A stretch of 64,000 nt of DNA, from positions 1,612,001 through 1,676,000 of the forward strand of contig NZ_CP109009.1 of the NCBI RefSeq assembly GCF_036226685.1, given 5' to 3'. Below the pieces are notes generated by a model, which did no database searches, had not been told where the DNA came from, and saw only the letters and a program-made list of their open reading frames with translations. The translations under genes were made by a program, and so were the position numbers. The DNA comes from Streptomyces sp. NBC_00690. Its GTDB lineage: Bacteria; Actinomycetota; Actinomycetes; Streptomycetales; Streptomycetaceae. Below, piece by piece: positions 1 to 49,362 of the stretch; position 1 is the stretch's first letter; each line of letters begins with the position of its first letter.

Positions 1-370
1 CAAGATCGGCGCCAGCCGGTGCGCCTACGTGGTGGCGCAACTCAACCCGGGTCCGGTCCTGCGCCAGCTCAGTGAACACCCACTCCCCGCGGATCTCAGT
101 GGCGGGCGCATCGGCCTCCTTGTAGGTGAACGTGATGCGGCGTCCCGGCCGGTCAGTGCGGCGCACAGCCCGCCATGTGCGAACGGCAGAATCACCGACC
201 AGCGACCAGTATTGGACCACCTCGCCCTCTTCGTCGCTGTCGACCAATTCCGCGTGCACGGCCGATAGATGAAACTGCGGCCACCGCGCCACGTCGGCAA
301 CCAGCTCGAATACCGTTTCGTAGTCGGCGTTGATGGTCACGACCTGCTCAACCTGCTGCGTACTCGACAC
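1..370 (-). CDS. Polyketide aromatase/cyclase (SRPBCC fold), truncated by the window edge
   Basis: Only the first 123 or so codons are visible; the gene runs off the left end. The reading begins at a GTG at 370-368, with GAGG about nine bases upstream. The protein opens MSSTQQVEQVVTINADYETV, the usual start of START/SRPBCC aromatases, in which a helix-grip pocket folds and aromatises a poly-beta-keto chain during type II polyketide synthesis. Further on, the WPQFHLSAVHAEL and VGDSAVRTW segments fit the same family. From this half it is not possible to say whether it is a mono-domain (TcmN-like) or a di-domain enzyme. It diverges from the TcmI-like cyclase at 583 and shares a promoter region containing SARP-type repeats. 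Cytoplasmic enzyme. Confidence 0.8.
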   Translation of the reverse strand, partial: MSSTQQVEQVVTINADYETVFELVADVARWPQFHLSAVHAELVDSDEEGEVVQYWSLVGDSAVRTWRAVRRTDRPGRRITFTYKEADAPATEIRGEWVFTELAQDRTRVELRHHVGAPAGADL

Positions 371-582
371 AACAAGACACCTCACAAGCGTCGTAGTGTC
401 TGGAACCGTCGCACTCGACGATGTCGTTCGCCGCTAGACCTCTCATCGAGAACCCTTCGAGTTGATCCGGCGTCGATTCGGCGTCGAAGGCACCGGCGCA
501 AGCTTGGCGAGACCTCGAAACGAGCCCTGCGAGGGTCCGTAGCGCGGCAACGGTTCCACCCGCCAACTGTGAGGAGAGGCAT
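371..582. promoter_or_regulatory. Divergent promoter with SARP-type direct repeats
   Basis: The 212 bases between two divergent polyketide genes contain TCGAGAA at 446-452, TCGAGTT at 457-463, TCGATTC at 473-479 and TCGAAGG at 484-490. The two pairs each have an exact 11-base period, the one-turn spacing known for binding sites of AfsR/SARP activators such as ActII-ORF4 and DnrI. Read on the minus strand, the second pair is the heptamer TCGACGC twice with a 4-base gap. A SARP gene lies at 12222-13067, so it is the likely ligand (inference). The downstream gene has a clear ribosome site, GAGGAG, at 572-577. Confidence 0.6.
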
Positions 583-1260
583 ATGCCGAGCATCATCACT
601 GTCGGCAAATTCGACAGTGATAACGTCGCCGACGTTTCCAAGATCCTTCGGGAGTTCGATGGCGGGGTTGCATCCGAGCTGCCCCAGCTGCGCCGCAGAC
701 AGGTCTTCAACTACTGCGATCTCTATGTGCACATGCAGGACTGGGACGTCGAGGACGCAGCTGAGGCATACCGGAAATCAACCACTGATCCCCGATGCGC
801 GCGGCTGAACGACAGCCTGTCGACCTACTTCGGCGTACACGCCGCGACGGAGGGCTGGGACGGACCGATCGACCAACCGACGGCCGAGCGTTTCTACGTG
901 TGGCCTGCTCAGCATCTGGAGAACCTGGAGCAGACGTACAGCGCGGTGATCGTGAACACCCAGCGGCAGGAGCACATCCCTGAGGTGTCGCGGCTGTTCG
1001 CGGAATCGGATTCAACCGATTTTCCGCACAAAATGGGGACGCTGCGCCGCCAGATCTATCTGTGGCGTGGCATATACCTGCACATCCAGGACTTCGCAGA
1101 ACCCGACGCTACCAACGTGATCAGCGCAGTGTGGACGGAAGGCGATCCCCGCTTCCTCCAGCTCGTCGACGACCTTACGCAGGTCATTCCACCGTATGAC
1201 CCGCAAGGTAACTCGTTGGCCACTCGTTTCTACCACTGGGCAGCAGAGGTGTCAGAATGA
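583..1260 (+). CDS. Tandem two-domain TcmI-family type II polyketide cyclase
   Basis: The 225-residue protein is about twice the length of TcmI (roughly 110 residues) and consists of two related halves. Residues 1-108 or so carry RRRQVFNYCDLYVHMQDW and the second half carries RRQIYLWRGIYLHIQDF, both matching the TcmI core pattern (basic residues, aromatic residue, then LY-hydrophobic-H). Each half also has a PRxxxL motif and an aromatic C-terminus (FYVW, FYHW). TcmI-like ferredoxin-fold enzymes catalyse late ring closures of aromatic polyketides. The start ATG follows GAGGAGAGGCAT. Its stop overlaps the P450 start (ATGA), which implies translational coupling. The second half could serve as a dimer partner within one chain, since TcmI proteins usually dimerise (inference). 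Confidence 0.75.
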   Translation: MPSIITVGKFDSDNVADVSKILREFDGGVASELPQLRRRQVFNYCDLYVHMQDWDVEDAAEAYRKSTTDPRCARLNDSLSTYFGVHAATEGWDGPIDQPTAERFYVWPAQHLENLEQTYSAVIVNTQRQEHIPEVSRLFAESDSTDFPHKMGTLRRQIYLWRGIYLHIQDFAEPDATNVISAVWTEGDPRFLQLVDDLTQVIPPYDPQGNSLATRFYHWAAEVSE

Positions 1261-2462
1261 CCAAATTACCAACCCACCCCATTCGGCGGAAGCTGCCCGG
1301 CGTACTTCCGGCCGAGTACGAAACACTGCGGGAAAAGGGCATTGGCCGGGTTACCCTGCCCACCGGCAAGTTGGCATGGATGGTGGTCAGGCCAGAGTAC
1401 GCCCGATTCGTACTCTCCGACCCACGGTTCAGCTCGGACAAGATGAACGACGACTTTCCGAAAATGACGCCGAACTCGCTAAACAAGTTGAAGTACTGCG
1501 CGCCGTTCATGATCAACCTGGATGGCCCCGAACATACGGCGAAGAAGAAGCCGGTCATCCAGGAATTCTCCCCGGCCGGACTCACCCGCCTGCTGCCCCG
1601 CCTACGGGTCGCTGTGGTCGAGCAAGTCGACGCGATGCTGGAGCGGCAGGACAAACCAGTCGATTTGGTGATGGAGCTGTCCTACCCAATCGCCTGGCGC
1701 CTGCAGGAAGTGTTCCTCGGCATACCCAAGGCTGAACTGCGGAAGATGCGGGACAACGTCTGGGACCTGCTGATGCGAACCGGCACCGAGGACGAAGAGA
1801 AGGCATCAGCCGCGCGCCTGAACCAGCACGCGGAAGACGTCATGAAAGAGAAGGCAAAAAACCTCGGCGACGACCTGATGAGCCGTCTGATCCAACAGGA
1901 ACTCGAGGAGCATGGGGAGGTCGACTGGTTCCGGCTGGCCCCCCTGATGTTGTCGAACGCCCAAGGCATTCACAACTCGACGTCCACGATGATCTCGTTG
2001 GGCGTGCTCACCTTGCTGAACCATCCGGAGGAGCGGGCGACGTTGCTTGCCGAGCCGGACCGGATGACGGTGGCAATAGATGAGATGATCCGGTACTTCT
2101 CGGTCAACGACGGAACGCCCATGCGGCTGGCCGTGGCAGATGTGCGTATCGGCGATACATTGGTCAAGGCCGGTGACGGCTTGGTGGTGCCAACGCTGCC
2201 CGTCAACCGCGACCCGTCGGTGTGTCCGTATCCCAATCAGCTCGATCTCATGCGGGACAAACCCACCAGACACCTGGCGTTTGGCCACGGTCCGCACCAA
2301 TGCCCGGCGAATCGCTTGGTGCCGGAGCTGATGGAGATCGTCTACACGACACTTTTTGAGCGAGCCCCCAAGCTCGCGCTGGCTGTTCCGGAGTCGGAGC
2401 TGACGTACAAGTACCACTCGATACAGGCGTTTGGTCCAGCCGAAATGCCAATCACCTGGTAG
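1257..2462 (+). CDS. Cytochrome P450 with non-canonical I-helix
   Basis: This 401-residue bacterial class I P450 has E276-x-x-R279 in the K helix and the haem loop FGHGPHQCPA with Cys349 as ligand. In the I helix the usual A-G-H-D/E-T-T oxygen-activation motif reads G237-I-H-N240-S241-T242. The acid is replaced by Asn and the first Thr by Ser, which points to altered chemistry such as phenol coupling, or to substrate-assisted proton delivery (inference). The gene overlaps the TcmI-like cyclase by four bases. The fourth codon is TTA (1266-1268), so translation should depend on the bldA tRNA. It probably oxidises the aromatic polyketide made by this cluster. No ferredoxin gene is visible nearby. 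Confidence 0.9.
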   Translation: MTKLPTHPIRRKLPGVLPAEYETLREKGIGRVTLPTGKLAWMVVRPEYARFVLSDPRFSSDKMNDDFPKMTPNSLNKLKYCAPFMINLDGPEHTAKKKPVIQEFSPAGLTRLLPRLRVAVVEQVDAMLERQDKPVDLVMELSYPIAWRLQEVFLGIPKAELRKMRDNVWDLLMRTGTEDEEKASAARLNQHAEDVMKEKAKNLGDDLMSRLIQQELEEHGEVDWFRLAPLMLSNAQGIHNSTSTMISLGVLTLLNHPEERATLLAEPDRMTVAIDEMIRYFSVNDGTPMRLAVADVRIGDTLVKAGDGLVVPTLPVNRDPSVCPYPNQLDLMRDKPTRHLAFGHGPHQCPANRLVPELMEIVYTTLFERAPKLALAVPESELTYKYHSIQAFGPAEMPITW

Positions 2463-2570
2463 GAGTGCCGGCCGCCGCTCACGTGCCTCGGCATCGGGCG
2501 CGGCGGCCCTACCAACGGCCATTGCTCGGCGGGCACAACGGCTCGCTACCCCTGGGGAGGACGTGACACC

Positions 2571-3332
2571 GTGACCGACGACGATATCCGGAGCGCCACG
2601 CTGGGCAGCGACGGCCGCATCGCTCTAGTGACCGGCGCTTCGGGAGCCCTCGGCGCCGCCGCGGCACGCGTACTCGACCGCCGTGGCTACCAACTGGCGT
2701 TGCACTACACCACCGGTGTGGATCGGGCCCGCAAGGTCGCCGCCGAGCTAAGCAGACCCAGCATCGTGGTGCAGGCGGACGTCGCAGACTGGGATGCCAC
2801 GCGGGACATGGTCGGCCGGGTGCGCACCGAGTTGGGCAGCATCAGCGTGCTCGTCAACGCAGGTGCTATCCGCCGCGACGGATTCATGGCCACCCAGTCC
2901 ATCGACGACTGGACTCAGATCATCGCGGTCAATCTGATCGGCACCTTCCATACCAGCCGGGCGGCGCTTCCGGACATGATGCGGGCCCGCTGGGGGCGCA
3001 TCATCAACGTCGTCTCCCCCGCCGGGCTCATCGGCAGTCCAGGCCAGACGGCGTACTCGGCGGCCAAGGCCGGCGTACTGGGGATGACCCGGAGCCTGGC
3101 TCTGGAGTGTGGGCGGTTCGAGGTAACGGTCAACGCGCTATCGCCTGGGCTCATGTGCACCGCGCTCACCGAAGACGTGCCGGCCAAGGTCCGTACGGCC
3201 CTCATGGCCCGGACGGCGTTCGGCCGCATGGGCACGCCCGGCGAGGTGGCCCGCGGCATCGAGCTACTGCTGGACGCCGACTATATGACAGGTCAGGTGT
3301 TGTCCATCGACGGCGGGATGTCGATCTCCTGA
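2571..3332 (+). CDS. Short-chain dehydrogenase/reductase (FabG-type ketoreductase)
   Basis: The 253-residue classical SDR has the NADP-binding TGASGALG motif at about residues 21-28, NAG at 96-98 and catalytic N121, S149, Y162 and K166. It resembles FabG and stand-alone polyketide ketoreductases that reduce a keto group of a carrier-bound or released intermediate. The start is taken as GTG or ATG codons upstream of MTDDDIRSAT; GGGAGGACGTG precedes it. It lies 108 bases after the P450 in the same direction and is likely in the same tailoring unit. The substrate cannot be read from sequence; reduction of a polyketide or of a modified phenazine ring are both possible. Confidence 0.85.
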   Translation: MTDDDIRSATLGSDGRIALVTGASGALGAAAARVLDRRGYQLALHYTTGVDRARKVAAELSRPSIVVQADVADWDATRDMVGRVRTELGSISVLVNAGAIRRDGFMATQSIDDWTQIIAVNLIGTFHTSRAALPDMMRARWGRIINVVSPAGLIGSPGQTAYSAAKAGVLGMTRSLALECGRFEVTVNALSPGLMCTALTEDVPAKVRTALMARTAFGRMGTPGEVARGIELLLDADYMTGQVLSIDGGMSIS

Positions 3333-3894
3333 CCGCCGCGACTGGACGGGCCGGGCCTCGGCCCGGCTGTTGCACATCAGCACGTGCTCCTAGGGGTGGT
3401 GCTCGCTGTGGTAGCTGTCACGCAGCCCCTCGGGGCCCAGCCTGCGATGTCGACGGCGAGCTTCCAGCCGAGATTCACCGCGCTGCGCCCCTACGCTCGT
3501 GCCTTGGGCTGACCGGAGTGTGACTCTGTGCGGCGGGCGGACGTCAGCCTGGCCTGACCGGCGCCGACGACGGTGGCGCCCTGGGCGCATTTACCGCTAC
3601 TCGTGCAGATGGATGCCGTCGTCGTGGGCGCAGCCCCAAGCCGGCCAAGCGAAGATGTCCCGCAGTCAGGAAAGCGCCCTCACGGTGACACCCGACCCAG
3701 CGATTCGCGGGGCGCCGACCCACCGTGGTTGTGCGTCATGCCGGTCATCGGTCCAAACACGCAGCGTGTTCCTGAACACCTGAGGCACATACGGTGAGGC
3801 GGCGTCGCGCAGCCACGGTAGTCAAACACCGTTGTGTTCAACCGGGACCTGCGCCTGGTCGAACACACCTTGGGTGGGGACGGCCGCGTCGCCC
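3333..3894. other. Convergent intergenic region, no gene seen
   Basis: The 562 bases between the ends of the SDR and the multicopper oxidase show no open frame with convincing codon bias. A GC-rich hairpin (CCGGGCC-tc-GGCCCGG) at about 3352-3367 directly follows the SDR and may terminate it. Two GTGTTC/GAACAC inverted repeats at 3766-3867 are listed separately. Confidence 0.5.
3766..3867. terminator. Pair of GTGTTC/GAACAC inverted repeats
   Basis: GTGTTC-ct-GAACAC at 3766-3779 is a perfect 6-base dyad. TGTGTTCAACC at 3833-3843 pairs with GGTCGAACACA at 3857-3867 (10 of 11) around a 13-base loop. The second lies 28 bases past the multicopper oxidase stop and could be its terminator. The shared hexamer in both dyads would also fit operator sites. 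Confidence 0.4.
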
Positions 3895-5346
3895 TCAGGT
3901 GATCTTCATCGTGGCCATCATGCCCATCGCGGAATGGTCGAGCATATGGCAGTGGTACACAAACTCCCCTGCATAGGTGTCGAAGGTTGCCTGGAGTTTG
4001 ACGGTCTCGCCCGGCATCACTGCCACGGTGTCCTTGAGGCCCAACTCGGCTGGGCCTGGGGCCGCCCCATTCCGTTCAATCACTCGGAACTGGACCAGAT
4101 GCATGTGGAAGTTGTGCGGTGCCCTGGTGTTGGCATTGGTGACCGTCCAGATCTCGCTCGCGCCGAATAGGACGTGTGCATCAACCCGCTGGTGGTCATA
4201 GACCTTGTCATCCATGTATGCCTGGGGGGAGGGCCTGCCGTCCTCGTCCATCCGCATCACAATGGTGCGGTGGGCTGTGGCAGTGGGCAAGGGGGGCAGG
4301 GCACGCAGCACACTGGGGATGGAGCTGGGGTCGGGGGCGGAACGTGTCACGTCGAAGCGCATGACCTGTTCAACTGAGCCATTGCTCGCGACGCTCTCCA
4401 GGAAGACTTGGGCGCCGATCGGGTAGCTTGAGAAGTCGATGACAATATCGGCACGCTCACCCGAGGTGATGAAGAGGGACTGTGTGGTGTGCGGAGCGGG
4501 CAGGAGTCCACCGTCCGACCCGATCTGAATCATGTTGGCCCCGCCTGAGAGGCGGAGGGTGAAGAAACGCATATTCGAGGAATTGGCTAGGCGGAACCGA
4601 TACTTACGGGCGGCGACCTCGAAGTACGGGTAGGGCACGCCGTTGGTGAGCAGGGTGTTCCTCGTTCGATCTCCCATGGCGTAGACGAGTTGGCCCGCAG
4701 CGTCGAAGCGCGCGTCACGCAGGTGGATCACCACGTCGTACGGGCCCTTGGGCAGCGGCAGGGCATCCTCGATGGAGTCGGAGATGAGATAGCTGCCCTG
4801 CAGGCCGCGATAGACGTTCTCCGACTCCAGGTGGTGAGCGTGGTCGTGATACCAAAGCGAGGCATGCGGCTGCCTGTTGGGATAGGTGTACACACGCTCG
4901 GCGTTGGGTGCGATGGTGTCCATGGGGCCGCCGTCGCTCTCGGGCGCTACCGAGGCACCGTGCAAATGGCGCGCTACAGGAACGTTCAGTCCATTGCGCT
5001 GAACAATGACGACGGGGCGGTTCTCTCGCGCCTTGATCGTCGCACCGGGGAATCGCCCATCGTAGGTGAGCAGTTGGGTACTCAAGCCCGGCAGAATCTG
5101 CTTCGTGGCGCTGATCACGTTGCTTTCGTATCTGTCCACCCCGCCGACGGTGGACACCGGCTGTGCCACGGGTATTAGCGGCATGGGCGTCTGGAACGGC
5201 ACGATGGGCGGGGGCGTGTTCTGCGTCGAGGCACCACCTGCGCGCTTGGCGTCCTTGGCGGTGAACACGGGGATCAGCGACACACCTGTCAAACCTGTGG
5301 CAGCGGTAGCGATCCCTGCACCGAGTAGGCGTCGTCTGGTGACCAT
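3895..5346 (-). CDS. Tat-exported multicopper oxidase
   Basis: The 483-residue protein begins MVTRRRLLGAGIATAATGLT, a twin-arginine signal. All four copper-binding motifs are present: HLHG and WYHDHAHH in the first cupredoxin domain, HNFHMHL and HCHMLDHSAMGMM in the last. The last motif gives a type 1 site with an axial Met. Length and pattern fit the CotA/bilirubin-oxidase/phenoxazinone-synthase-like three-domain group, which oxidises phenols and aminophenols with oxygen. It starts 81 bases after phzB on the same strand with AAGGAAG upstream, so it is probably in the phzB transcript. The setting suggests oxidative coupling or oxidation of a phenazine or polyketide product outside the membrane (inference). 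Confidence 0.88.
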   Translation of the reverse strand: MVTRRRLLGAGIATAATGLTGVSLIPVFTAKDAKRAGGASTQNTPPPIVPFQTPMPLIPVAQPVSTVGGVDRYESNVISATKQILPGLSTQLLTYDGRFPGATIKARENRPVVIVQRNGLNVPVARHLHGASVAPESDGGPMDTIAPNAERVYTYPNRQPHASLWYHDHAHHLESENVYRGLQGSYLISDSIEDALPLPKGPYDVVIHLRDARFDAAGQLVYAMGDRTRNTLLTNGVPYPYFEVAARKYRFRLANSSNMRFFTLRLSGGANMIQIGSDGGLLPAPHTTQSLFITSGERADIVIDFSSYPIGAQVFLESVASNGSVEQVMRFDVTRSAPDPSSIPSVLRALPPLPTATAHRTIVMRMDEDGRPSPQAYMDDKVYDHQRVDAHVLFGASEIWTVTNANTRAPHNFHMHLVQFRVIERNGAAPGPAELGLKDTVAVMPGETVKLQATFDTYAGEFVYHCHMLDHSAMGMMATMKIT

Positions 5347-5427
5347 AGTTCTTCCTTAAGAGGGCTAGTTTCCGAAAGGAACGACTGAGTAGGAGGCCGG
5401 AAATCGCACATCGCGACCTGCCTGCGT

Positions 5428-5916
5428 TCAGGTGGGGATTCCTGCGCGCTTTACCACTGGCACGGGAATTCCGAGTGCACGCATCTGTTCAAGGGGGTTC
5501 ATGAACTCTCGATTCCGCACAATCTTTCCGTCGTCGAGCTCGAAGGAGTGCAGAAAATGGTTCTCGTAGTAGCCGTCTGCGTAGCCCGGAAATTTGATCT
5601 TTCCGTGACCGTCGCACTCCACCCAAATGTAGTTCGGATCCTGAGTTTCGAAGATCTGAATGTTGTACCATTCCCAGTCCGGGAAGCACTTGAGTGACCA
5701 TACGCCGTGCTCGCGCAAACGGTCTCGCCCTTGGATGACGATGGGTGCCCCGGTGTCATTCGTCCACAGGCCGCCACTGCCGTCCTCAACGAAAAGCTCG
5801 TGACGGCGCAGCCGAGCTTCCCCCTTGGTATCCGCTAGATACTTCTCAACGGTGGCTCGGTTCTTCCGGCGCAGTGCGACGTAATCGGCGAAGGCGTGCG
5901 TAATTGCGTCAGGCAT
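5428..5916 (-). CDS. phzB: Phenazine biosynthesis protein PhzB (PhzA/B family)
   Basis: The 162-residue protein matches Pseudomonas PhzB closely from memory: LRRHELFVEDGSGGLWTND, HGVWSLKCFPDWEWYNI, FPGYADGYYENHFLHSF and IPVPVVKRAGIPT. PhzA/B belong to the delta-5-3-ketosteroid isomerase/NTF2 fold and help the condensation of two aminocyclohexenone molecules into the tricyclic phenazine. Only one copy is present, as is usual outside fluorescent pseudomonads. The ATG at 5916 is preceded by GAGGGG and gives the standard family length; a longer frame to 5967 exists but adds non-homologous residues. It is separated from phzDEFG by the methyltransferase and a convergent gap, and is followed by the multicopper oxidase. 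Confidence 0.95.
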   Translation of the reverse strand: MPDAITHAFADYVALRRKNRATVEKYLADTKGEARLRRHELFVEDGSGGLWTNDTGAPIVIQGRDRLREHGVWSLKCFPDWEWYNIQIFETQDPNYIWVECDGHGKIKFPGYADGYYENHFLHSFELDDGKIVRNREFMNPLEQMRALGIPVPVVKRAGIPT

Positions 5917-6187
5917 GTGTTCCCCTCGGCAGGGTTCGCAGGAAACGGCAATATTCAACCGTAGCAACTATGGCATGAGAATTATGACAGTCATCGCTTG
6001 ATACCCACTTGAGGGTCGGCTGAGAATGTCACTCGCAGATTCTCAGTTACGCGGGATGCGGCAGGGCTGTATTGAATCTCGACCGGAACCCGATGAGCTC
6101 CGAACACACTGCAGAGGCATGCTCGGGTCGCCAGTAGGCCCATATGGCAGGCGCAGGTCAAGGAAACCGGCAAAAGGGAGATCACTG
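5917..6187. promoter_or_regulatory. Divergent promoter between phzB and the methyltransferase, with inverted repeat
   Basis: CTGAGAAT at 6020-6027 and ATTCTCAG at 6039-6046 form a perfect 8-base inverted repeat with an 11-base spacer, centred between two divergent genes. Further right TCGA at 6079 is followed by CCGA at 6090 and 6100, a weak 11/10-base periodic array that could be a second SARP site. The methyltransferase ribosome site is AAGGGAG at about 6173-6179. Confidence 0.45.
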
Positions 6188-7279
6188 ATGACAGGCACCC
6201 ATCGTGAGGCTGAAGCGACCAGGCGCACGGCGGGCACCTCGCACGGCGTGGATGTTGGGCAGAGCTCCGGCTCCAAAGCGGCACAGGCTACGGACGAGTT
6301 GCTCGAACTCTCGCTGGGCTACCTCTACTCAGCCGCCCTGAACACCGCAGCCCGCTTCCGGATCGCAGATCATCTGGGAGCCGGGCCGTGCACGGCCGAG
6401 GAGCTCGCCGAGGCCGCAGGTGTGGATGCCTCGTACCTCTATCGAGTCCTGCGGCTGCTCAGCACTAAGGGTGTGTTCCGGGAGGACGAAGAGGCCAGGT
6501 TCCGCCTCACACCGCTTGCGCAACTGTTGCGTACGGACACGGAGCAGTCATTGCGTGACTACGTCCTGGTCCGTGGTGAGCCAGCGTTCTGGCAATCAGC
6601 AGGCCGGCTCCATGAGGCGGTTCGGACCGGCACCAACGCATTCGAGTCCATCCACGGCGTGCCCTTCTACGACCACGTCGCTGCCGATCCGGAACTCGGT
6701 AGGACATTCAATTCCAGCATGGCGGCCTTCTCGCAGGTGCTCAGCAACACTGTTGTCGATTCCTTCGATTTCTCCGTATGCAAGAGTGCCGTGGACGTCG
6801 GTGGCGGGCGGGGCGGCCTGCTACGTACAGTGCTTCTCCGCAACCCGCATATGACGGGGATCCTTCTCGATCTGGAATCCGTTGTTGCCGAACACCAACT
6901 CGACGTTCCCGAACTGGCCGGTCGGTGGGCCGCCGTGGCCGGGGACTTCTTCACATCGGTGCCGTCCGGCGCCGACATCTATCTCCTCAAACACGTATTG
7001 GCCAGTTGGCAGGACGACGAGTGCGTACGCATCTTGCGGACGTGCCGCGCGGCCATACCCGCGCACGGCCGCCTGTTGGTCGTCAACGCACTGATTCCGC
7101 CGGGCAATGAGCCCCATGCCGGCAAGACCGGGGACGTGCTGATGATGACGGTCCTCAACGGGCGGGGCCGCACGCGTGCGGAGTACGAGGCATTGTTGGT
7201 GGCATCGGGGTTCACGGTCACTCGTGTGTTGGAGGCTTCCTCGCACGCTTCGGCCATTGAGGCGGTACCTGCAGACTGA
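6188..7279 (+). CDS. SAM-dependent methyltransferase of the PhzM/DnrK-type O-methyltransferase family
   Basis: The 363-residue protein has an N-terminal dimerisation winged helix (AAEELAEAAGVDASYLYRVL) and a C-terminal Rossmann domain with SAM motif DVGGGRG near residue 200. The segment that carries HDW with the catalytic His in plant-type O-methyltransferases reads LKHVLASWQDDE, so that His is Ala, as in the DnrK/RdmB group. Methylation by proximity, at oxygen or nitrogen, is therefore possible. Pseudomonas PhzM methylates phenazine-1-carboxylate at N5; position in a phz cluster makes a phenazine substrate likely, but a polyketide hydroxyl is an alternative. Start chosen at ATG with AAGGGAG upstream; it diverges from phzB. 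Confidence 0.85.
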   Translation: MTGTHREAEATRRTAGTSHGVDVGQSSGSKAAQATDELLELSLGYLYSAALNTAARFRIADHLGAGPCTAEELAEAAGVDASYLYRVLRLLSTKGVFREDEEARFRLTPLAQLLRTDTEQSLRDYVLVRGEPAFWQSAGRLHEAVRTGTNAFESIHGVPFYDHVAADPELGRTFNSSMAAFSQVLSNTVVDSFDFSVCKSAVDVGGGRGGLLRTVLLRNPHMTGILLDLESVVAEHQLDVPELAGRWAAVAGDFFTSVPSGADIYLLKHVLASWQDDECVRILRTCRAAIPAHGRLLVVNALIPPGNEPHAGKTGDVLMMTVLNGRGRTRAEYEALLVASGFTVTRVLEASSHASAIEAVPAD

Positions 7280-7715
7280 GCTTTCGGTTCCATGCCTTGC
7301 TGGTACTCGATCGTTGGTGGCGACCAAGATCAGACCCAATAGTCGTGTCCGGTGCTTGCGCACCGGTTGCACTTCGTGGAACGAGCCTGCTGCGTTCGTA
7401 CGCAAGCAGTTGGGCCCTTGCCGTGTTGGCGCCGTGTTGGCGCTCGATTGTCTGGCATCGAGTCCGTCCTGCACAAGCAATGCGAGTTCCCAACTCCTCG
7501 GCACAGCAATGCAAACAGTGGGTTGCCTAGGAGTCCTCCTCGACAGTACGAACAAGCGGCAGAAGGCTCTGATGAGGGGGCAGCCTTCTGCTACATCCGG
7601 GTGGGAGCACCGAAGGTGACCGCACGGACCGGCCAAGGTAGTGACCCGGGGCAGCGGCGACTCGTACCGCTCCCAAGGCCATGCTGCGCATCTGGACCGA
7701 GTGGCCAAGTGAGGG
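7280..7715. other. Convergent intergenic region between methyltransferase and phzG
   Basis: No reading frame here has recognisable homology. The stretch holds one strong hairpin (listed separately) at 7559-7591. Short tandem-like echoes (CGTGTTGGCGC twice near 7420-7440) are visible but appear to be chance. Confidence 0.5.
7559..7591. terminator. Hairpin terminator between convergent transcripts
   Basis: GCAGAAGGCT at 7559-7568 pairs perfectly with AGCCTTCTGC at 7582-7591 around a 13-base loop. It lies between the end of the methyltransferase and the end of phzG and may serve both. There is no T-run, which is common for Streptomyces terminators. Confidence 0.6.
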
Positions 7716-8414
7716 TCACGGCTGGAGCCTGTCGGCGTTCCAGCCGTCGGCCGTGCGGTCATACCGCAGCCGCTCGTGCAGCCGGTCCGTGCCGTTGGCC
7801 CAGAACTCGACAACCACAGGGGCAAGTCGGTAGGCCGCGAACGTCTCGGGGCACGGCAGCGCCCGCTGTGACGCGCCCAGTGTCCGGGCCCTGTCACGAA
7901 GCTCGGCCACCTCGGCAAGGCTCTCCATCGACCGGCTCTGTTGGGAAACCGTGCTCATGGCGTGCGTGAAGACTGGCCGCGCCTGCCACAGGGCCTGGGC
8001 CTGGGAGTGGGGCAACCGGTGCACCGGACCGGCCAGAGTGATCTGCTGGCTGGTCTCCCTCCAGTACAAGACACCTGACGCCCAGGGGTTCTCGGCCAGT
8101 TCCCGTCCTTTTCGGCTGCAGGCGTGGGTGACGAAGTCAACCCCGGCCTCGGTCACCGAGCCGAGGACTACGGTGCGGGACGAGGGACGGCCTTGAGCAT
8201 CGGCGGTGGCCAGAGCCAATGCGCGCGGCTCCCGAACTCCGAGGGCGACACTGCGTCCGAGCCAGGTGGCCAGCAACCCCATCGGGTCGTTCGGCGGCAC
8301 CTGGTACTCCGGGAAGCGCACCTCATGGGTGCCGGTGAGCGATTCCGACCGTGCTGCGGCCGGGCGGTCGCCCACGCCGTCTGTAGTTGAGGGCGACGAG
8401 AGCGGGTCAGACAT
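7716..8414 (-). CDS. phzG: Phenazine biosynthesis FMN-dependent oxidase PhzG
   Basis: The 232-residue protein belongs to the pyridoxamine 5'-phosphate oxidase-like split-barrel family. Markers are ALATADAQGRPSSRTVVL, FVTHACSRKGRELAENPWAS and WRETSQQITLAGPV, together with the C-terminal VEFWANGTDRLHERLRYDR. PhzG oxidises tetrahydro-/dihydro-phenazine carboxylates to the aromatic phenazine-1-carboxylic or 1,6-dicarboxylic acid. The ATG at 8414 overlaps the phzF stop by eight bases, so it is translationally coupled as the last gene of phzDEFG. A longer upstream frame to 8753 is antisense-like read-through into phzF and is rejected. Confidence 0.93.
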   Translation of the reverse strand: MSDPLSSPSTTDGVGDRPAAARSESLTGTHEVRFPEYQVPPNDPMGLLATWLGRSVALGVREPRALALATADAQGRPSSRTVVLGSVTEAGVDFVTHACSRKGRELAENPWASGVLYWRETSQQITLAGPVHRLPHSQAQALWQARPVFTHAMSTVSQQSRSMESLAEVAELRDRARTLGASQRALPCPETFAAYRLAPVVVEFWANGTDRLHERLRYDRTADGWNADRLQP

Positions 8415-9246
8415 GGAGCAGCCCCTCAGCAGTGATGACTCCGTGGCCGCGGACCTCCACGGAGTCGACCCGGTCGCCTGCTCCCTGCACCAGCGCTTCC
8501 ATGAGCGAGGGCCGGCCGATCTCCACACCCTGGGTGATGTAGACGTCCTGCCCGTACGCACGCAGGCCGTGCCGCGCGAGATGGATGGCGATGGGCCCAG
8601 CGGCGGAGCCGGTGGCTGCGTCCTCCACCACTCCGTAGGAGGGCGAGAACATGCGGTTGCGCCAAGCACCCCCGCTTCCGGCGTAGCAGTTAACCGCCAA
8701 GTCGGCAAAGTACGACAGAGCGCGGTGATCGGGATTGACCTGCGATAGGGCATCCACGCTGTCGAGCCCCACGAGGACGTGCCGCGGTCCGTTCACATAG
8801 ATCTCGACGGGAAGGGTCGACGCACCGAGGTCCAGCGCGTGAAGCAGTTCATCGGTGCGGTCGAAAGGTTTCCACCAGGGCACCGGCTGGCGCATGCTCG
8901 CCCGGACCACTCGTTCACCGGCGCGTTCGAGTGTGAAGGGAATGACTCCCATGGCGGTCTCCAGGTGCAAATGGTGCGCCTCTGTGCCGATGCCCAAGGC
9001 CACAGCGGTGCCGAGCAGCGGGTGTCCGGCGAAGGGAAGTTCGTTCACGGGGGTGAAGATCCGCACGTGGGCGTCACTGTCTTCGGTGCGCGAGGGCAGC
9101 ACGAACGTAGTCTCCGAGAGATTCATCTCCCGGGCTATACGCTGCATCTGGTCGGTGGCCAGATCGTCGCCGTGGAAGAACACGGCCACCGGGTTGCCGC
9201 TGAGGGGTTGGTTGGAGAACGCGTCGACGACAACGTACTTGTGCAT
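8407..9246 (-). CDS. phzF: trans-2,3-dihydro-3-hydroxyanthranilate isomerase PhzF
   Basis: The 279-residue protein begins MHKYVVVDAFSNQPLSGNPV and has the expected catalytic residues: E45 in NLSET, H75 in FAGHPLLG and D209 in EDAATGSAAGP. PhzF converts dihydro-hydroxyanthranilate to the reactive aminocyclohexenone that dimerises to the phenazine skeleton. The ATG at 9246 has GAGGAG upstream; an upstream in-frame extension is not homologous. It starts 56 bases after phzE ends and its stop overlaps the phzG start. Full length for the family (about 278). Confidence 0.96.
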   Translation of the reverse strand: MHKYVVVDAFSNQPLSGNPVAVFFHGDDLATDQMQRIAREMNLSETTFVLPSRTEDSDAHVRIFTPVNELPFAGHPLLGTAVALGIGTEAHHLHLETAMGVIPFTLERAGERVVRASMRQPVPWWKPFDRTDELLHALDLGASTLPVEIYVNGPRHVLVGLDSVDALSQVNPDHRALSYFADLAVNCYAGSGGAWRNRMFSPSYGVVEDAATGSAAGPIAIHLARHGLRAYGQDVYITQGVEIGRPSLMEALVQGAGDRVDSVEVRGHGVITAEGLLHV

Positions 9247-9302
9247 ATGCTCCTCACTCGTCAAAGGATGTGCCACAGCCGGCATGGGGTCGAGAAGCTT
9301 GA

Positions 9303-11243
9303 TCAGCCCGCCATGCTTGATGCGGAGGCCAGTACGTCGGCCAGAGCGGCGCCCACGATGCGCGGGCCGCCTTGGGTGAGCACAGATTCCGGGTGAAACT
9401 GCATCGAGGCGAAGCCTGGTCCGCGCAGTGCGTGGACCTCCCCGTTGACCGCATCCCGGCTCACCCGGACTAGGCCCACGCCGGCAGCGATGAATGCATC
9501 GCCTTCGCAGGTGAGCGCGAAGGTGTTGTAGAAGCCGACGCGTTCGGTGGCGCCGAAGAGGTCGATCTCCCTGTGCACTCCCTGGCTGGGAGCAGCCTTT
9601 TGTCGCAGGGGCAGTCCAAGCCTCAAACCGAGGATCTGGTGACTGAGACACACCGAGAAGAACGGCTGGCGTCGGCGCAGTAGCGTTTCCACCGTCGCAT
9701 CCAGGTAGCGCATCTTCGGATGTGTCTGGTCTTGGGGATCACCAGGCCCCGGGCCCATCACGACGAAGTCGTAGCCTTCTAGGGAACAGTCCTCGTCGAA
9801 GCGGCGAACCGTTACCTCTAGCCCCAAGGACCTGAGCTGCTGATCAAGCATCGAGGTGAAGGCATCCTCGGCGTCAACCACGATGGCACGGCGTCCGGCC
9901 AATTGTGGATGCGCACCGGCTTGCCTGGCGTCGCCGGACAACCAGAAGGTACCGATGGGTGCGTTGCGTTGCTCCAATGCCTTGCGGACGCTCGGGTGGC
10001 CTGCGAAGCGCCGTGGAACCTCGTTGAATGCAGCCAAGAGTCCGGCGGCCTTGGCCCGCGTCTCGGCGGCTTCAGATCCAGGATCGGAGTGCCGCACGAT
10101 CGTGGCGCCCACAGAGATGCCGACACGGCCCGCGGTCGAGATATCCGCCGTTCGGATCAAGATCGCGGAGTCCATAACACTGCTGCCGTACGCGTCCCGT
10201 CCGATGAGAGCCACGGCACCGCTGTAGTAGCCGCGGCCTCCTGGTTCGTATTTGCGAATGATCCGGCAGGCGCTTTCCAGCGGGCTTCCGGTCACAGTGG
10301 GCGCGAACATCGTCTCGCGCAGGATGTCGCGGACATCATGGTCGGTTGCGCCCTCGATCAGGTACTCCGTGTGCGCTAGCTGAGCCATTTCCCGCAGTTG
10401 CGGGCCGATGACCCGACCACCCCTGTCACAGATGCGCCCCATCATCTTGAGTTCCTCGTCCAGTACCATGTACAGCTCGTCGGTCTCCTTGCGATCACGA
10501 AGGAACTCCAACACGCCTTCGAGCGTGGGACCCGACGGGGGATAGCGGTACGTGCCACTGATGGGATTCATCACGGCGATGCCGTGATGGAGGCTCACAT
10601 GCCTTTCAGGTGAAGCACCAACGAGCGTCCGAGTGCCGGTGTGGATCAGGAAGGTCCAGTGCGCACCCGACTCTCGTTCGACGAGACGGCGGAAGAGCGC
10701 GGGGGCGCTGTGCGCCCCATAGTCCGTGATGTCTGCGACGAACGTGCGTTTGATGACGAAGCTCGAACCTTCCCCCGTACCGATCATCTCTTTGATGACA
10801 CTGCGCACCGCTTCTTCGTATGTCTGGTCATCCACATCGAAATCGCCATCAGCCAGTCGGGTGGGCACAGAGGGAAGACGCGGCAGAGCCTCAGCCAGTG
10901 GCAACTGCTGCTGGCGGGTGATGGTCATGGCCACGAGCGGTGTTCCGTCGTCAGCACAGGCGAAGCCGCGCTCGATGAGTTGCCGATAGGGGACGATCAC
11001 CAACACATCGTGCTGGGCCCCCTCGCCTGCCTGGGGACCGGGGGCTGGGGGCAGGGGGATGTCTGCCAGCGTGGTGGGAAACGTCACCGAACCTTCGACG
11101 ACCTCCACGGCGTCGGGGCCGGTGACACTGGGCCGATGCAGTAGTGCGAACGCTTGCGCCTGCCCGTCCAGCACCCTCTGGAGCACGTCCGTGTCCGTGT
11201 GACCCGCATGCGGCGGACGGCTGTGCGGCTGTCCGCCCGTCAT
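9303..11243 (-). CDS. phzE: 2-amino-2-desoxyisochorismate synthase PhzE
   Basis: The 646-residue protein fuses an anthranilate-synthase-I-like chorismate-binding domain (about residues 1-420; [58 protein letters not shown]) to a class I glutamine amidotransferase domain with Cys532 in FFSVCLSHQ and a late FHPES motif. It makes ADIC from chorismate and glutamine, the first committed step to phenazines. The ATG at 11243 overlaps the phzD TGA as ATGA; the longer frame to 11423 reads through phzD and is not used. Chorismate must come from the primary shikimate pathway because no phzC (DAHP synthase) is present here. Confidence 0.95.
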
Positions 11244-11863
11244 GTCAAAACCCCCTTGACCGTGGTGACCAGGGCACAGCGCTCGGCGGCATAGGTGAGC
11301 GCCCGATGGTGGTACTCCTGCGAGAAGTCTGCCGTGGCGTCCGCAACGAGGAACGGCTGTATGTCGCGGGCGAATGCGTCGATCGCTGTGGCGAGAACGC
11401 CAACGTGGGCATAGACGCCACACAGGATCAGTTGATCGCGGCCCTCAGCCTGCATACGCTCAAGGAGGTCAGTCTTGAAGAACGCGCTGTAGCGCCATTT
11501 GGTGAACATCCAGTCGGCATCATTTGGGGCAAGGGCATCGACGACCAGGCGGTCCTCGGGAGCGGGGCGCATACCGGGCCCCCAGAAATCCTTCAGCAGA
11601 CCACGTTCGGCGTCGCTCATTCCCCCCGGCTGGGCGGTGTAGGCGATGGGAATGCCACGCCCGACACAGCGATCACGTAACTGTGCCGCATGGTGCACTA
11701 GTTGACGGCTCAGACTTCCGGGGAGCGGTCTGAGGAAGTACCTCTGCATGTCATGGACCAACAAGACCGATCGCTTGGGACTCACACTCCAGGACACAGT
11801 GGGTGATGGGAGATCACCCTCGGTGGGCAGCGGGTACGCAGTCACAGGGGGTATGCCGGCCAT
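11240..11863 (-). CDS. phzD: Isochorismatase-family ADIC hydrolase PhzD
   Basis: The 207-residue protein has exactly the length of Pseudomonas PhzD and its catalytic residues at the same numbers: D38 in [15 protein letters not shown] and K122 in [10 protein letters not shown], plus the [10 protein letters not shown] strand. It hydrolyses ADIC to trans-2,3-dihydro-3-hydroxyanthranilate and pyruvate. It is the first gene of the phzDEFG operon, with GGAAATGGAGCG before the ATG and an ATGA overlap with phzE. Leu62 is encoded by TTA (complement of 11678-11680), so bldA should gate translation at the head of the operon. Confidence 0.96.
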
Positions 11864-11965
11864 CGCTCCATTTCCTTGCTTCAGGTGTGCGGTGCACAGC
11901 AGGGCGCGAAACGTCAGTTGGCTCAGGTGGTCCGGGGAAGCGATATGCCTCGATCAACAGACCGC

Positions 11966-12190
11966 GTGGTGACGAAGGTGGACGTTGGGCTCAGTCGACG
12001 ACGCTTACGACAAAGCCCCTGCCGGAGTCGACGATCGGCCCGTTCACAACGGAACTGGTCGAGCTCGCCACCGCCGAAGGGACCGACTGGAACCGTCACC
12101 GCCGACTCCATGGAGAGTTGGGCCGCATCCCGCCCGTCGACTGCATGTTCAATCACCGGCTGGAATCCATCAATTCCAGCCAAGACCAGT
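11966..12190 (+). pseudogene. Decayed IS3-family transposase (OrfB C-terminal fragment)
   Basis: In the 358-base gap upstream of phzD the plus strand encodes pieces of the C-terminal DDE-integrase region of IS3-type OrfB. Frame one reads GSVDDAYDKAPA and, after a single-base shift near 12023, a second frame reads ESTIGPFTTELVELA and then RRLHGELGRIPPVD. Intact elements of the family have GSVGDSYDNALAES followed by RRLHSSIGDLPP. A stop lies just upstream of the first piece, and no upstream half, partner orfA or terminal repeats are visible. It is a relic and marks past insertion between the phz operon and the SARP gene. The phzD promoter must lie within about 100 bases of 11864 or inside this relic. 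Confidence 0.65.
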
Positions 12191-12221
12191 ATCTGAGGCG
12201 TTCGTCAAAACCGGGGCTAAC

Positions 12222-13067
12222 TCAACAACTGCTATGGACCAAGCTATCCGAGCGCCCAGCAACCGACTCGACCAACGAACCATCAGACCCCGAAATTAGA
12301 ATCAAACGCTGGATCCGCTGCAAATCTGCCGACGGCTCAAGCCCAAGATCTCGCACCAGCGCGGCCCGCAAATTCTGATATACCTCCAATGCCTCAACGC
12401 GCCGCCCAGACCGATGCAATGCAAGCATATATTGCGCATGAAAATTCTCATGCGCGGGATGACGATTGACCAAAACAGTCAACTCAGAAAGGAGATCACG
12501 ATGCCGACCAAGCCGAAGCTCCGCGCTAATGCGCTGATCAATAGCGCACAATCTCACCTCCTCCAACCGCCTGATCTCCAAATATAGATGCTCACCGGCT
12601 GGCACATCAGCAAAAGGTGGTCCGGTCCACAACTCCAACGCCTTCTTCAACTGCCTGACCGCCCCCTGGAAATCCCCAGCATCCACAGCACGATAGCCCG
12701 CACTCGTTAACTCCTCGAATTCCCTCACATCACTACTCCCCCCACCGCTATCCAATAAGTAGCCGCCCGGAACGGTCACCAAAATCGACTTGGCCGAACC
12801 CCGTGCACCAACCCGTGGGCGCCCACGCCCCCGCCCCAGGGCCCGCTCAATCAGCTCACGCAACTGCAACACATAGGTCTGCAAAGTAGTACGCGCACTG
12901 CGCGGCGGAGTGCTCCCCCACAACTCCTCCATCAAAGTCGCAACAGGTACCGGCCGATCAGCACGAAGCGCCAGCAAGGCAAGCAGCTGCCGCGGCTTAG
13001 GCGCAGTAGGCGTTATGGAAACACCATTCTCCTGAACATCCAAAACGCCCATAACCTCAATGTCCAT
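12222..13067 (-). CDS. AfsR/SARP-family pathway-specific activator
   Basis: The 281-residue protein has an N-terminal winged-helix DNA-binding domain (MDIEVMGVLDV, KPRQLLALLALRADRPVP, RTTLQTYVLQLRELI) followed by a bacterial transcriptional activation (BTAD) domain ending in HRSGRRVEALEVYQNL and LGLEPS. Such proteins activate Streptomyces antibiotic operons by binding TCGAG-type direct repeats, which are present at 446-490. Leu104 and Leu120 are TTA codons (12756-12758 and 12708-12710 on the plus strand), so production should be tied to bldA and late growth. The ATG at 13067 follows AGAGGGGGAT. The gene has many A/T-ending codons compared with its right-hand neighbours. Confidence 0.9.
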   Translation of the reverse strand: MDIEVMGVLDVQENGVSITPTAPKPRQLLALLALRADRPVPVATLMEELWGSTPPRSARTTLQTYVLQLRELIERALGRGRGRPRVGARGSAKSILVTVPGGYLLDSGGGSSDVREFEELTSAGYRAVDAGDFQGAVRQLKKALELWTGPPFADVPAGEHLYLEIRRLEEVRLCAIDQRISAELRLGRHRDLLSELTVLVNRHPAHENFHAQYMLALHRSGRRVEALEVYQNLRAALVRDLGLEPSADLQRIQRLILISGSDGSLVESVAGRSDSLVHSSC

Positions 13068-13126
13068 GCAATCCCCCTCTTTCCCATGCATCAAATGAGC
13101 CTCAGGTTAAGACAGCTACTTTCACT

Positions 13127-13156
13127 AGCCTAAAAACCGCAAGAGTGACTTGTCAA
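13127..13156 (-). promoter_or_regulatory. Sigma-70-like promoter of the SARP gene
   Basis: On the minus strand TTGACA (13156-13151) is followed after 18 bases by TAGGCT (13132-13127). This is a good match to the vegetative HrdB-type consensus and leaves a leader of about 55 bases before the SARP start at 13067. Confidence 0.55.
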
Positions 13157-13998
13157 CATAAATCTTCGTAATAACCCCCCATAGCCGGCACACCCCACAC
13201 CTACACCCATTTACCAACACCACCCCATCACCACGAGATACTTCATCCACCCACCCAACAACACCACTCGACCTCCGATCTCTGGCCGAGACTCGAACGA
13301 GCCGCTGCGACCGCACAACACCTCGGTCCCAGGAAGCCCGGCTCCGTCATCACCGTCTTCAACCTGCGTCTGTTGGGGTGATCGCACTCTGCCCCTTCTC
13401 CGCGCGACCACCTCTGCCTACACCCGCACAATCGGCGAGTTCGCTCTCTTGAAGCTTTCCTGAAGATCTTGCTGGCGGCAGGGGCCTCAAGAGCGCCCTT
13501 CGACCGTTGCGCGGTGGTGGGTGCGAGAGTTCAGATGTGGCCGGCCCGGAAGAGGCCGAGGTTGAGCAGTCGAGGCAGCTCGAAGGCTGCGGCGCACTTG
13601 TGGAGTCAGATGTTGTTGCCACCTCATTGGGGACGTGTCGGCTGCCCGTGGTGGGAAGCCAGGCCATGGCGCTTTCGACACGAGGGCACCAACGCCGATA
13701 CCCCGTTTGTCAGTTCGGGGCGGTGGCCCGCAGGCGGGCGGCATTCGGATGATCGTAGTGGGCGTGGACTTGGAAGGCGCGGCCGCTTTTCGGCCTGGGT
13801 GCACTGCCCGCCAGGCGGGCAGGCGCGACGGAGCCTTGCAAACAGAGCAGAGCGGGGCACCTGGCGAGCCGGGTCGGGTCGACCGAGGGCCACGATGACC
13901 GGCGGGCAGGTCACCATGCATCACCGGCGACCACAGTCCAGCGATAGGTGCGGATCCTGGCAGCCGCCATCCGTGTGGGCCGAGACCCGACTACCAAC
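13157..13998. other. Gene-poor boundary stretch
   Basis: This stretch of about 840 bases has no frame with recognisable homology. At 13160-13260 the plus strand is strongly depleted in G and rich in C and A. From about 13480 onward it is GC-rich but every long frame has poor codon bias; one minus-strand fragment (LHKCAAAFELPRLLNLGLF, about 13535-13600) is closed by stops at both ends and looks like a decayed gene. It separates the metabolite cluster from ordinary chromosomal genes. Confidence 0.4.
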
Positions 13999-14046
13999 GG
14001 AGTGAGGACTCACTCATTGACAGAGTGAGTCCTCACTCCGTACTCT
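13999..14046 (+). promoter_or_regulatory. Leaderless promoter with double TetR operator
   Basis: Two copies of a 16-base palindrome, GAGTGAGgaCTCACTC at 14000-14015 and GAGTGAGtcCTCACTC at 14023-14038, flank TTGACA at 14017-14022. Together they form a perfect 17-base inverted repeat (13999-14015 with 14023-14039). TACTCT at 14041-14046 lies 18 bases from TTGACA, and the ATG at 14054 is where transcription would begin, so the mRNA is probably leaderless. Binding of the TetR product here would block its own promoter. Confidence 0.8.
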
Positions 14047-14053
14047 CACGGTC

Positions 14054-14671
14054 ATGACAGCAGCAAGAGAGCAGACCACCCGCCGTCGTGCACCCGGTAT
14101 GTTGCCGGAGCAGCGGCGCGCGATGATCATCCAGACCGCGATCCCGCTGATCGCCGAGTACGGAGCTTCGGTGACGACCGCGAAGGTCGCCCGCGCCGCG
14201 GGCGTCGGCGAGGGCACGATCTTCCGGGTCTTTGCCGACAAGGACGAGTTACTGCAAGCGTGCCTGGCTGAGGCGTTCTCCCCTGAGCACGCGATCCGTG
14301 AGCTCGGGGCCATCGATATGTCCCAGCCATTGCCCGACCGGCTCGCGGAGGCGGCCCAGTCGCTACAGGCCCACCTTTCTCGAATGGGCGCGATCGCCGG
14401 CTCACTGCACGCTTCCGGACACCGCAGCGGCAAGCACCCCGGCACCGTCCGTGGCGCGGGCCGCGACGAGTCGACGACCCGTATCCGCGAGGCCCTCGCG
14501 CATCTGATGGAACCCGACAGGGCCAAGCTGCGCCAGCCGCCGGAACAGATCGCGGCCCTCTTCTTCGCGCTGCTCTTCACCCAGCCGCACATGGAGGACG
14601 AGCCAGCACTGACCACGCAGGAACTGGTCGAGCTCTTCCTGAACGGCGCCATCGCAGGAGGCACCAAGTGA
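14054..14671 (+). CDS. TetR-family transcriptional repressor
   Basis: The 205-residue protein has the TetR N-terminal helix-turn-helix (IIQTAIPLIAEYGASVTTAKVARAAGVGEGTIFRVFADKDEL, key positions 30-70) and a divergent ligand-binding helix bundle. It follows directly on a promoter that contains two perfect palindromes and should autoregulate. Its stop codon overlaps the GTG start of the DUF6069 membrane protein (GTGA), so repressor and membrane protein are coupled, a common arrangement for small-molecule-responsive membrane functions. The inducer is unknown. The pair lies just outside the cluster border and its link with phenazine chemistry is speculative. Confidence 0.9.
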   Translation: MTAAREQTTRRRAPGMLPEQRRAMIIQTAIPLIAEYGASVTTAKVARAAGVGEGTIFRVFADKDELLQACLAEAFSPEHAIRELGAIDMSQPLPDRLAEAAQSLQAHLSRMGAIAGSLHASGHRSGKHPGTVRGAGRDESTTRIREALAHLMEPDRAKLRQPPEQIAALFFALLFTQPHMEDEPALTTQELVELFLNGAIAGGTK

Positions 14672-48252: not shown

Positions 48253-48363
48253 GTCGGAAGCGTCCTCCTTGAGAGACGACGGTCAGCCGACTTCACTCGT
48301 CCAAAGAGGCCCTCTTGGCGTCATGCGCTGCCGGCCACACTGCACGGCTCCGCATCGACGAGG

Positions 48364-48972
48364 TCAATCGGCCATTGTGTCCGCCTTGACGAGGCGGCGG
48401 ACCTGGACCACATACAGCATCCCTGCCCACCAATACAGAGTTGTACCCCATCCGGCGAAGGCCCATCCGAAAATAGCAGCGAGTGACGCCAGCCATCCAG
48501 TTCCGTCACTGAGCAGGAGCAAGGGAAACGCGTACATCAGGTTGAAGGTCGCGGCCTTGCCGAGGAAGTTCACCTGCGGTGGTGGATAGCCGTGCCGTCG
48601 AAGGATTGCGACCATCACCAGGAGCATCAGTTCACGGGCCAAAAGGGCGGCTGTGAGCCACAGCGGGAGGATCTCACGCCAGGTAAGACCGACCAGAGTG
48701 GACAGGATGTACAACCTGTCCGCCGCGGGGTCGAGGAGCCGGCCGAGCTTGCTGACCTGGTTCCACCGGCGGGCCAGTTTCCCGTCGAGATAGTCACTGA
48801 TCCCACTCAGCATGAGCACCAGCAGTGCCCAGCCGTCGCTCTTGGGCCCGCCGAACTCGGGGCGGAGAATCAACCACAGGAAGAGCGGTACGCCGGCGAG
48901 ACGGGCCATGCTGAGGATGTTGGGGATGGTGAGTACCCGGTCCGTCTGAACGCGGGTCTCTTGGACCTCCAC
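48364..48972 (-). CDS. CDP-alcohol phosphatidyltransferase, probable cardiolipin synthase
   Basis: The 202-residue membrane protein has the CDP-alcohol transferase signature D-G-x2-A-R-x8-G-x3-D-x3-D: SDYLDGKLARRWNQVSKLG followed by RLLDPAADRL. Position after the guanylyltransferase-like gene fits the S. coelicolor cardiolipin synthase (SCO1389-type, which uses CDP-diacylglycerol and phosphatidylglycerol). PgsA cannot be excluded from sequence alone. A GTG start at 48972 follows CAGGAGG. Confidence 0.88.
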   Translation of the reverse strand: MEVQETRVQTDRVLTIPNILSMARLAGVPLFLWLILRPEFGGPKSDGWALLVLMLSGISDYLDGKLARRWNQVSKLGRLLDPAADRLYILSTLVGLTWREILPLWLTAALLARELMLLVMVAILRRHGYPPPQVNFLGKAATFNLMYAFPLLLLSDGTGWLASLAAIFGWAFAGWGTTLYWWAGMLYVVQVRRLVKADTMAD

Positions 48973-49161: not shown

Positions 49162-49173
49162 ATCACAATGATT

Positions 49174-49292: not shown

Positions 49293-49362
49293 ACTATAAA
49301 ACCAACCGGAAATGTCACGGTCGTGGTTTCAGAACCAACACAGTGGACGCGAGCCTCTATGG

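Follow-up and report, generated by a model that had tools for sequence, protein, structure and literature searches.

We analyzed a 64,000-nucleotide stretch of the genome of Streptomyces sp. NBC_00690 (NZ_CP109009.1, C1:1612001-1676000), hereafter the window, the left part of which had been proposed from the sequence alone to pair phenazine core genes with type II polyketide tailoring genes in one cluster. The genome measures 9.17 Mb in two contigs, and the 72 kb leftward of the window were also read, giving 136 kb in total. Genes were called with a simple caller of our own, so that starts are approximate and some genes may have been missed. Identities were assigned from Pfam and NCBIfam profile matches and from sequence matches to the PDB, for which chance is no concern, and they bore out the genes named in the original prediction: the aromatase, the TcmI-type cyclase, the cytochrome P450, the ketoreductase, the multicopper oxidase, phzB and phzDEFG, the methyltransferase, and the SARP gene. 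The features run as follows, in window coordinates, with percentages giving amino acid identity.

-568..370 (C1:1611432-1612370; 1..370 inside the window), minus strand: aromatase/cyclase of the polyketide synthase (PKS) unit; Pfam Polyketide_cyc2, E 1e-16; 75-82% at the same position in seven relatives.
371..582, no strand: divergent promoter region; contains two triple TCGA repeats of the SARP type (period 11 bp), whose first bases are 435 and 462.
583..1260, plus strand: two-domain (fused) TcmI-type cyclase of the PKS unit; Cyclase_polyket in two stretches, E 6.8e-48; 77-82% in seven relatives.
1257..2462, plus strand: cytochrome P450 of the PKS unit; PF00067, E 2.3e-11; 79-87% in seven relatives.
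2571..3332, plus strand: ketoreductase (SDR/FabG-like), the final PKS-unit gene common to the seven relatives; adh_short, E 4.8e-50; 81-85%.
3333..3894, no strand: junction between the blocks, with convergent genes on either side and no recognizable gene.
3895..5346, minus strand: multicopper oxidase of the phenazine block; Cu-oxidase domains; adjoins phzB in genome G220 (69% over 290 of 483 residues, at a contig end) and in Streptomyces sp. NBC_01450 (71%).
5428..5967, minus strand: phzB (PhzA/B); PF03284, E 5.1e-84; PDB 3ff0, E 5e-86.
6026..7279, plus strand: O-methyltransferase family gene of the phenazine block; Methyltransf_2, E 7.5e-46; 75-76% at the matching place in G220 and NBC_01450.
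7716..8414, minus strand: phzG; NCBIfam phena_PhzG, 304.6 bits against a cut-off of 270, model positions 1-206 of 206.
8407..9246, minus strand: phzF; PDB 1t6k, E 1.8e-114.
9303..11243, minus strand: phzE; PDB 3r74, E 5.4e-210, residues 19-638 of 646.
11240..11863, minus strand: phzD; PDB 1nf9, E 1.2e-91.
12222..13094, minus strand: SARP-family regulator (the right SARP); BTAD, E 3.9e-45; GC content at third codon positions (GC3) 0.59; unmatched in both comparison phenazine loci.

The two gene sets had been described as interleaved, but the phz genes, the oxidase, and one methyltransferase form a single contiguous block (multicopper oxidase-phzB-O-methyltransferase-phzG-phzF-phzE-phzD, window 3895-11863), and the polyketide genes form another. 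PhzB, PhzE, PhzD, and PhzF align over nearly their full length with solved enzymes and all five phz core frames are full length; phzBDEFG is, by its predicted products, a phenazine core cluster, phzC being a common companion of such genes and not a defining one. PhzE, PhzD, PhzF, PhzB, and PhzG would convert chorismate to a phenazine carboxylic acid, which the methyltransferase and the multicopper oxidase would then modify. The methyltransferase, whose start is uncertain (6026, or 6188 as preferred by our caller), belongs to the O-methyltransferase family; described earlier as PhzM-like, the protein is nearer in sequence to CalO1 (PDB 3lst, E 1.3e-70) than to PhzM (PDB 2ip2, E 2e-40). Between it and phzG lies a 436-bp spacer (window 7280-7715) that contains a tandem repeat of 11 bp (∼7420-7443); the corresponding spacer measures ∼10-20 bp in the two relative loci considered below.

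The PKS unit as a whole spans C1:1580995-1615332, through window position 3332. The ketosynthase (KS) α, chain length factor (CLF), and acyl carrier protein (ACP) genes that had been predicted to lie to the left were found 7.5-12 kb left of the window (KSα C1:1603268-1604533, CLF C1:1602043-1603275, and ACP C1:1600374-1600631), so the original prediction does not fall for want of a minimal PKS upstream. Alongside them are genes for a KSIII, a P450, a FAD monooxygenase, a DrrAB-type transporter, methyltransferases, a ketoreductase, a response regulator, and a SARP. The cluster had also been called SARP-bounded, which is only half accurate: a SARP gene stands at each side, but the left one is found 16 kb outside the window, and the 13-kb type I PKS of the polyketide unit lies beyond it. 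This type I PKS, a protein of 4442 residues accompanied by a FabV-type enoyl reductase, consists of KSQ-AT-ACP followed by two KS-AT-DH-KR-ACP modules. Its first acyltransferase carries the motif HAFH and the other two carry YASH, which PMC10646177 links to malonyl and methylmalonyl, respectively. The best PDB match of the KSIII is DpsC (E 1.4e-88), and its Ser-112, His-287, and Asp-292 occupy the places of the DpsC triad as given in PMC12664062, where HedS of the hedamycin pathway is also counted as DpsC-like.

With a minimal PKS, a KSQ-containing type I PKS, and a DpsC-like KS, the unit is, on its predicted gene content, a hedamycin-like type I/type II hybrid PKS. The simplest reading, on the pattern of hedamycin and kidamycin, is that the type II PKS would receive a branched short acyl starter: the type I protein and the FabV-like reductase would make the starter, the DpsC-like KSIII would hand it to the ACP, and KSα/CLF would extend the chain. 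The ketoreductases, aromatase, and cyclase would fold the polyketide, and the P450s, the FAD monooxygenase, and the methyltransferases would decorate it; the DrrAB-type genes suggest export. The hedamycin and kidamycin clusters, as described in PMC10646177 and PMC12664062, share with this unit a KSQ-loading type I PKS that feeds a type II PKS and a DpsC-like priming KS. The unit differs from them in that a single 4442-residue protein holds the loading module and both extension modules, the FabV-type reductase is separate, and the TcmI-type cyclase is a two-domain fusion; no glycosyltransferase was seen among the Pfam-scanned genes. A literature search turned up no described product for it.

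A cyclase search of GTDB species genomes led to five Streptomyces loci, to which a genus sample of 392 genomes and a family sample of 394 added G334 and G616 (G248 and G393, which hold the same S. flavochromogenes contig, were counted once). All seven assemblies keep the order KSα, P450, FAD monooxygenase, methyltransferase, aromatase, cyclase, P450, and ketoreductase, with identities mostly of 74-91%, the lowest full-length value being that of DrrA in KL109B (69%). The DrrAB and TetR genes lie within this conserved order except in SA15, and the DrrB match in SirexAA-E covers 66 residues only. The full unit, from the FabV-type gene through the ketoreductase, is collinear in G334, SirexAA-E, and G616; the S. 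flavochromogenes contig begins inside the type I PKS, and this protein is conserved in all five relatives whose DNA extends far enough (partly in two). In SA15 the SARP gene is directly left of CLF and the KSIII gene is on a different contig (contig C11 of this strain was left out of the mapping). The units of SirexAA-E and S. flavochromogenes NRRL B-2684 are collinear with that of NBC_00690 at 75-91% identity, DrrB excepted, but have no phz genes and carry an additional gene between the P450 and the ketoreductase. Some 1.2 kb of extra DNA occupies this place in all of the relatives except SA15 and codes for a Clp_N-domain protein in S. flavochromogenes (L069:1890-2591), where a phosphopantetheinyl transferase gene comes after the ketoreductase. 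A fragment of an integrase-core (rve_3) transposase (C1:1598624-1599148) sits inside the NBC_00690 unit, between the response regulator and a methyltransferase, and is unmatched there in the mapped relatives.

The two gene sets are not conserved jointly across species. PHZA_PHZB was not found genome-wide in any of the seven assemblies, five of them in a search that lacked its own positive control, the other two (G334 and G616) in one where both NBC_00690 and G220 scored. No match to the window's oxidase or phz genes was present right of the ketoreductase, over 16-25 kb in four relatives and ∼5-7 kb in three. The right flanks of six relatives were also compared pairwise at the DNA level; G616 stood outside this comparison and may be conspecific with one of the six. 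Conversely, a 10-kb contig of G220 (C188) carries the oxidase (at the contig end), phzB, the methyltransferase, phzG, phzF, phzE, and phzD in the same order at 68-80% identity, in a genome with no such cyclase at E ≤ 1e-40 and a best KSα of 67% identity among the matches listed. In Streptomyces sp. NBC_01450, the linear plasmid NZ_CP109481.1 has all seven block genes with order and relative orientation preserved (66-80% identity), and its DNA matches span, in pieces, window 3901-11878, that is, to the edges of the oxidase and phzD. Neither phenazine stretch gave a PKS-unit match at the thresholds used, and in NBC_01450 no match to the SARPs or PKS-unit genes of NBC_00690 was present within 29.8 kb at E ≤ 1e-15. 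Because the oxidase stands next to the phz genes in both loci without this PKS, it belongs with the phenazine block.

The plasmid block differs from that of NBC_00690 in having phzC, together with NHL-repeat, sigma-factor-like, and 94-residue genes, beside phzD. The same trio occurs in G220, where phzC is reduced to short remnants, and its members (94, 229, and 383 residues for the small, sigma-factor-like, and NHL-repeat proteins; L086:9943-12135 in NBC_01450 and L067:7544-9746 in G220) are 80-93% identical between the two; they are possibly regulators of this phenazine block. Neither the trio nor the DAHP synthase of NBC_01450 had a tblastn match in the 136 kb of NBC_00690, and no local phzC was found.

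Given that the PKS unit occurs alone in seven assemblies and the phenazine block alone in two loci, the border between them can be placed at window 3333-3894. A DNA search of this interval against its own genome for mobile-element scars gave one weak 47-base match only. The same search with 13095-14122 gave two matches, a short inverted one to itself and a 192-base copy elsewhere of the part at 13937-14122, which adjoins the TetR gene, and short open reading frames in the intergenic DNA searched for scars had no Pfam match above the cut-off. An empty-site comparison with a right-flank protein in 61 genomes returned best non-self matches of 64-65% identity, so that no near relative was available for it. 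Most likely, both clusters are contained in one island of roughly 42-44 kb, from C1:1580995 to about 1625094.

We searched the 136 kb for putative SARP boxes in the form of three TCGA units spaced at 11 bp (no more than one mismatch in 12 bases, expectation from simulations). Four were found versus 0.45 expected, all of them in the PKS unit (0.12 expected; the largest count in 60 simulations was 1) and all intergenic: one between ACP and KSIII, one between the P450 and the FAD monooxygenase, and two between the aromatase and the cyclase, with none in the phenazine block. Exactly the same four recur in S. flavochromogenes, G334, SirexAA-E, and G616 (40-79 kb searched in each), and none occurs in the phenazine loci of G220 and NBC_01450. 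The left SARP would be expected to switch on three divergent promoter regions of the PKS unit. Between phzD and the right SARP no 7-base repeat with 11- or 22-bp spacing reached 6 of 7 bases; a few weak ones lie upstream of the right SARP. A simple TCGA-N7-TCGA pair was a weak test and was superseded by the triple repeat: it gave 4 in the PKS unit versus 1.0 expected, but a count of 4 was also reached among 100 simulations.

Since each gene set occurs without the other in relatives, the locus most likely holds two separate pathways in one island. From the observed gene content and order, independent conservation, and repeat placement, we consider it very likely that two self-contained clusters abut here and that they most likely make two separate products and do not form one hybrid pathway. 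The original prediction had favored either one molecule with both parts or a pair of products joined by the oxidase, and the separate occurrence of each half elsewhere, with the oxidase accompanying the phz genes, speaks against both. A hybrid molecule, for which the type II PKS would be primed by a phenazine carboxylic acid or this acid coupled during assembly, is very improbable. Both gene sets do appear intact, and a phenazine dicarboxylic acid is proposed as a PKS starter for streptophenazines in PMC10817512; however, the polyketide unit carries genes for a starter supply of its own, and KSIII orthologs (79-84% identity) in all seven assemblies without phz genes make a phenazine starter unnecessary. 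The KSQ type I PKS and the DpsC-like KSIII were also why we rejected a phenazine starter as the leading idea. The absence of SARP-type boxes from the phenazine block weakens the hybrid proposal further, and Pfam recognized no acyl-CoA or AMP ligase in the genes examined from the left SARP to the right.

That the clusters form a co-regulated pair, making two products that act jointly or are joined after assembly by the multicopper oxidase, is unlikely. It would fit the GC3 signature common to both blocks, the SARP genes near both ends, the position of the oxidase at the junction, and the presence of oxidase relatives in type II PKS regions of other strains, and the enzyme could couple a phenazine acid to a polyketide; yet the oxidase goes with the phz genes in two loci that lack this PKS, each block is found alone, and the repeats of the PKS promoters have no counterpart in the phenazine block or qualifying 7-base equivalent between phzD and the right SARP. 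A more specific version, that the block was captured by the PKS island and retained for long enough to take on its base composition because the products work together, possibly coupled by the oxidase into a phenazine-aromatic polyketide conjugate, we regard as improbable. It is likewise unlikely that the phenazine block is decaying cargo yielding little or nothing: the missing phzC, present in NBC_01450 and reduced to remnants in G220, and the long spacer before phzG point that way, but the five core frames are full length, four of their products align nearly end-to-end with solved enzymes, and PhzG matches its full NCBIfam model.

Several observations weigh against two independent clusters that merely adjoin, among them base composition. 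The median GC3 of 20 PKS-unit genes (0.776) is close to that of seven phenazine-block genes (0.750; p 0.37), and both blocks are below 62 flanking genes (0.845-0.868; p 1.2e-7 and 2.3e-4) and below sampled orthologs (0.88-0.97). Overall GC content shows the same displacement, being 0.634 for the PKS unit (SARP to ketoreductase; four relatives, 0.693-0.698) and 0.632 for the phenazine block (two relatives, 0.721 and 0.733). Median GC3 is 0.879 in a second type II PKS region (1541.5-1560 kb), so low GC3 is no rule for clusters of this genome. The shared low GC3 implies that the pairing is not simply recent and that co-selection is possible; the natural reading is that both blocks have been together for some time, either as one acquired island or through joint residence in a lower-GC genome.

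The pairing is also rare. For the count we took the strongest PHZA_PHZB matches, those at E ≤ 4.5e-72 (46 places, distributed over 45 genomes of the genus), leaving out 11 second PHZA_PHZB copies (two on other contigs), weak SnoaL-like matches, and KSα places below 48% identity, with at least 69 KSα places kept. Among the matches listed, only in NBC_00690 does a KSα (≥48% identity) lie no more than 100 kb away on that contig, and at least 25 of the 46 places share a contig with some KSα; contig breaks may limit the rest. In other strains, relatives of the oxidase (44-55% identity) are likewise neighbors of type II KS genes, adjacent or close by. The comparative evidence has limits of the same bearing: several of the seven assemblies are drafts, and in three only ∼5-7 kb right of the ketoreductase are covered; the independent phenazine block is known from two loci, one of which is cut by a contig end; and strain NPDC056500 encodes a 98% identical cyclase on a 55-kb contig and may own the second member of P0154, the cluster that holds the PhzE of NBC_00690. 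An argument that NPDC056500 lacks the phenazine block, based on a methyltransferase list (the best 120 of 736), was dropped, as the window's own methyltransferase is unlisted too and cluster P0154 has two members. Given how rare the pairing is and that the two blocks share their base composition, there is a small chance that they form a functional pair, and a strain-specific interaction between the two halves may exist.

Comparable proximity has been described. According to PMC10817512, a region of S. globisporus SCSIO LCY30 (cluster 20) predicted as a "T1PKS, T2PKS, and phenazines hybrid" comprises an angucycline cluster and a phenazine cluster, from which mayamycins and streptophenazines were isolated separately. 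It resembles the present locus in placing type II PKS and phenazine genes with separate products in one predicted region, and differs in that its phenazine set is of the streptophenazine type, in which a PKS extends the phenazine, and its angucycline PKS is of the mayamycin type. None of the papers returned by the literature searches presents a joint type II PKS-phenazine molecule in its title or the opening of its abstract. On the linear plasmid NZ_CP115301.1 of S. camelliae, a phenazine cluster lies ∼100 kb from a type II PKS region that includes a multicopper oxidase gene.

The locus is thus a clean example of apparent new hybrid chemistry that comparison with relatives separates into two adjacent clusters, with the border placed within 562 bases. 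The polyketide half corresponds to a conserved, predicted type I-primed type II system, and the phenazine block, laccase-like oxidase included, is a compact module that a linear plasmid carries as well. Their shared base composition raises the question of whether adjacent clusters are retained together for a reason.

The second KSα/CLF pair lies 52-70 kb leftward of the window, at C1:1541539-1559876, and is accompanied by a separate KSIII homologue (C1:1556080-1557087, 50% identical). The region has matches to ketoreductase and aromatase genes of the S. camelliae plasmid's type II cluster and is probably another type II PKS cluster. Elsewhere in the window, GC content dips to 0.55-0.60 at 48001-54000, versus 0.64-0.72 on either side, and only one gene was called in that stretch. 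An identical ketosynthase match at C1:30157-30867 and C2:30157-30867 suggests that the chromosome and the second contig share end sequence.

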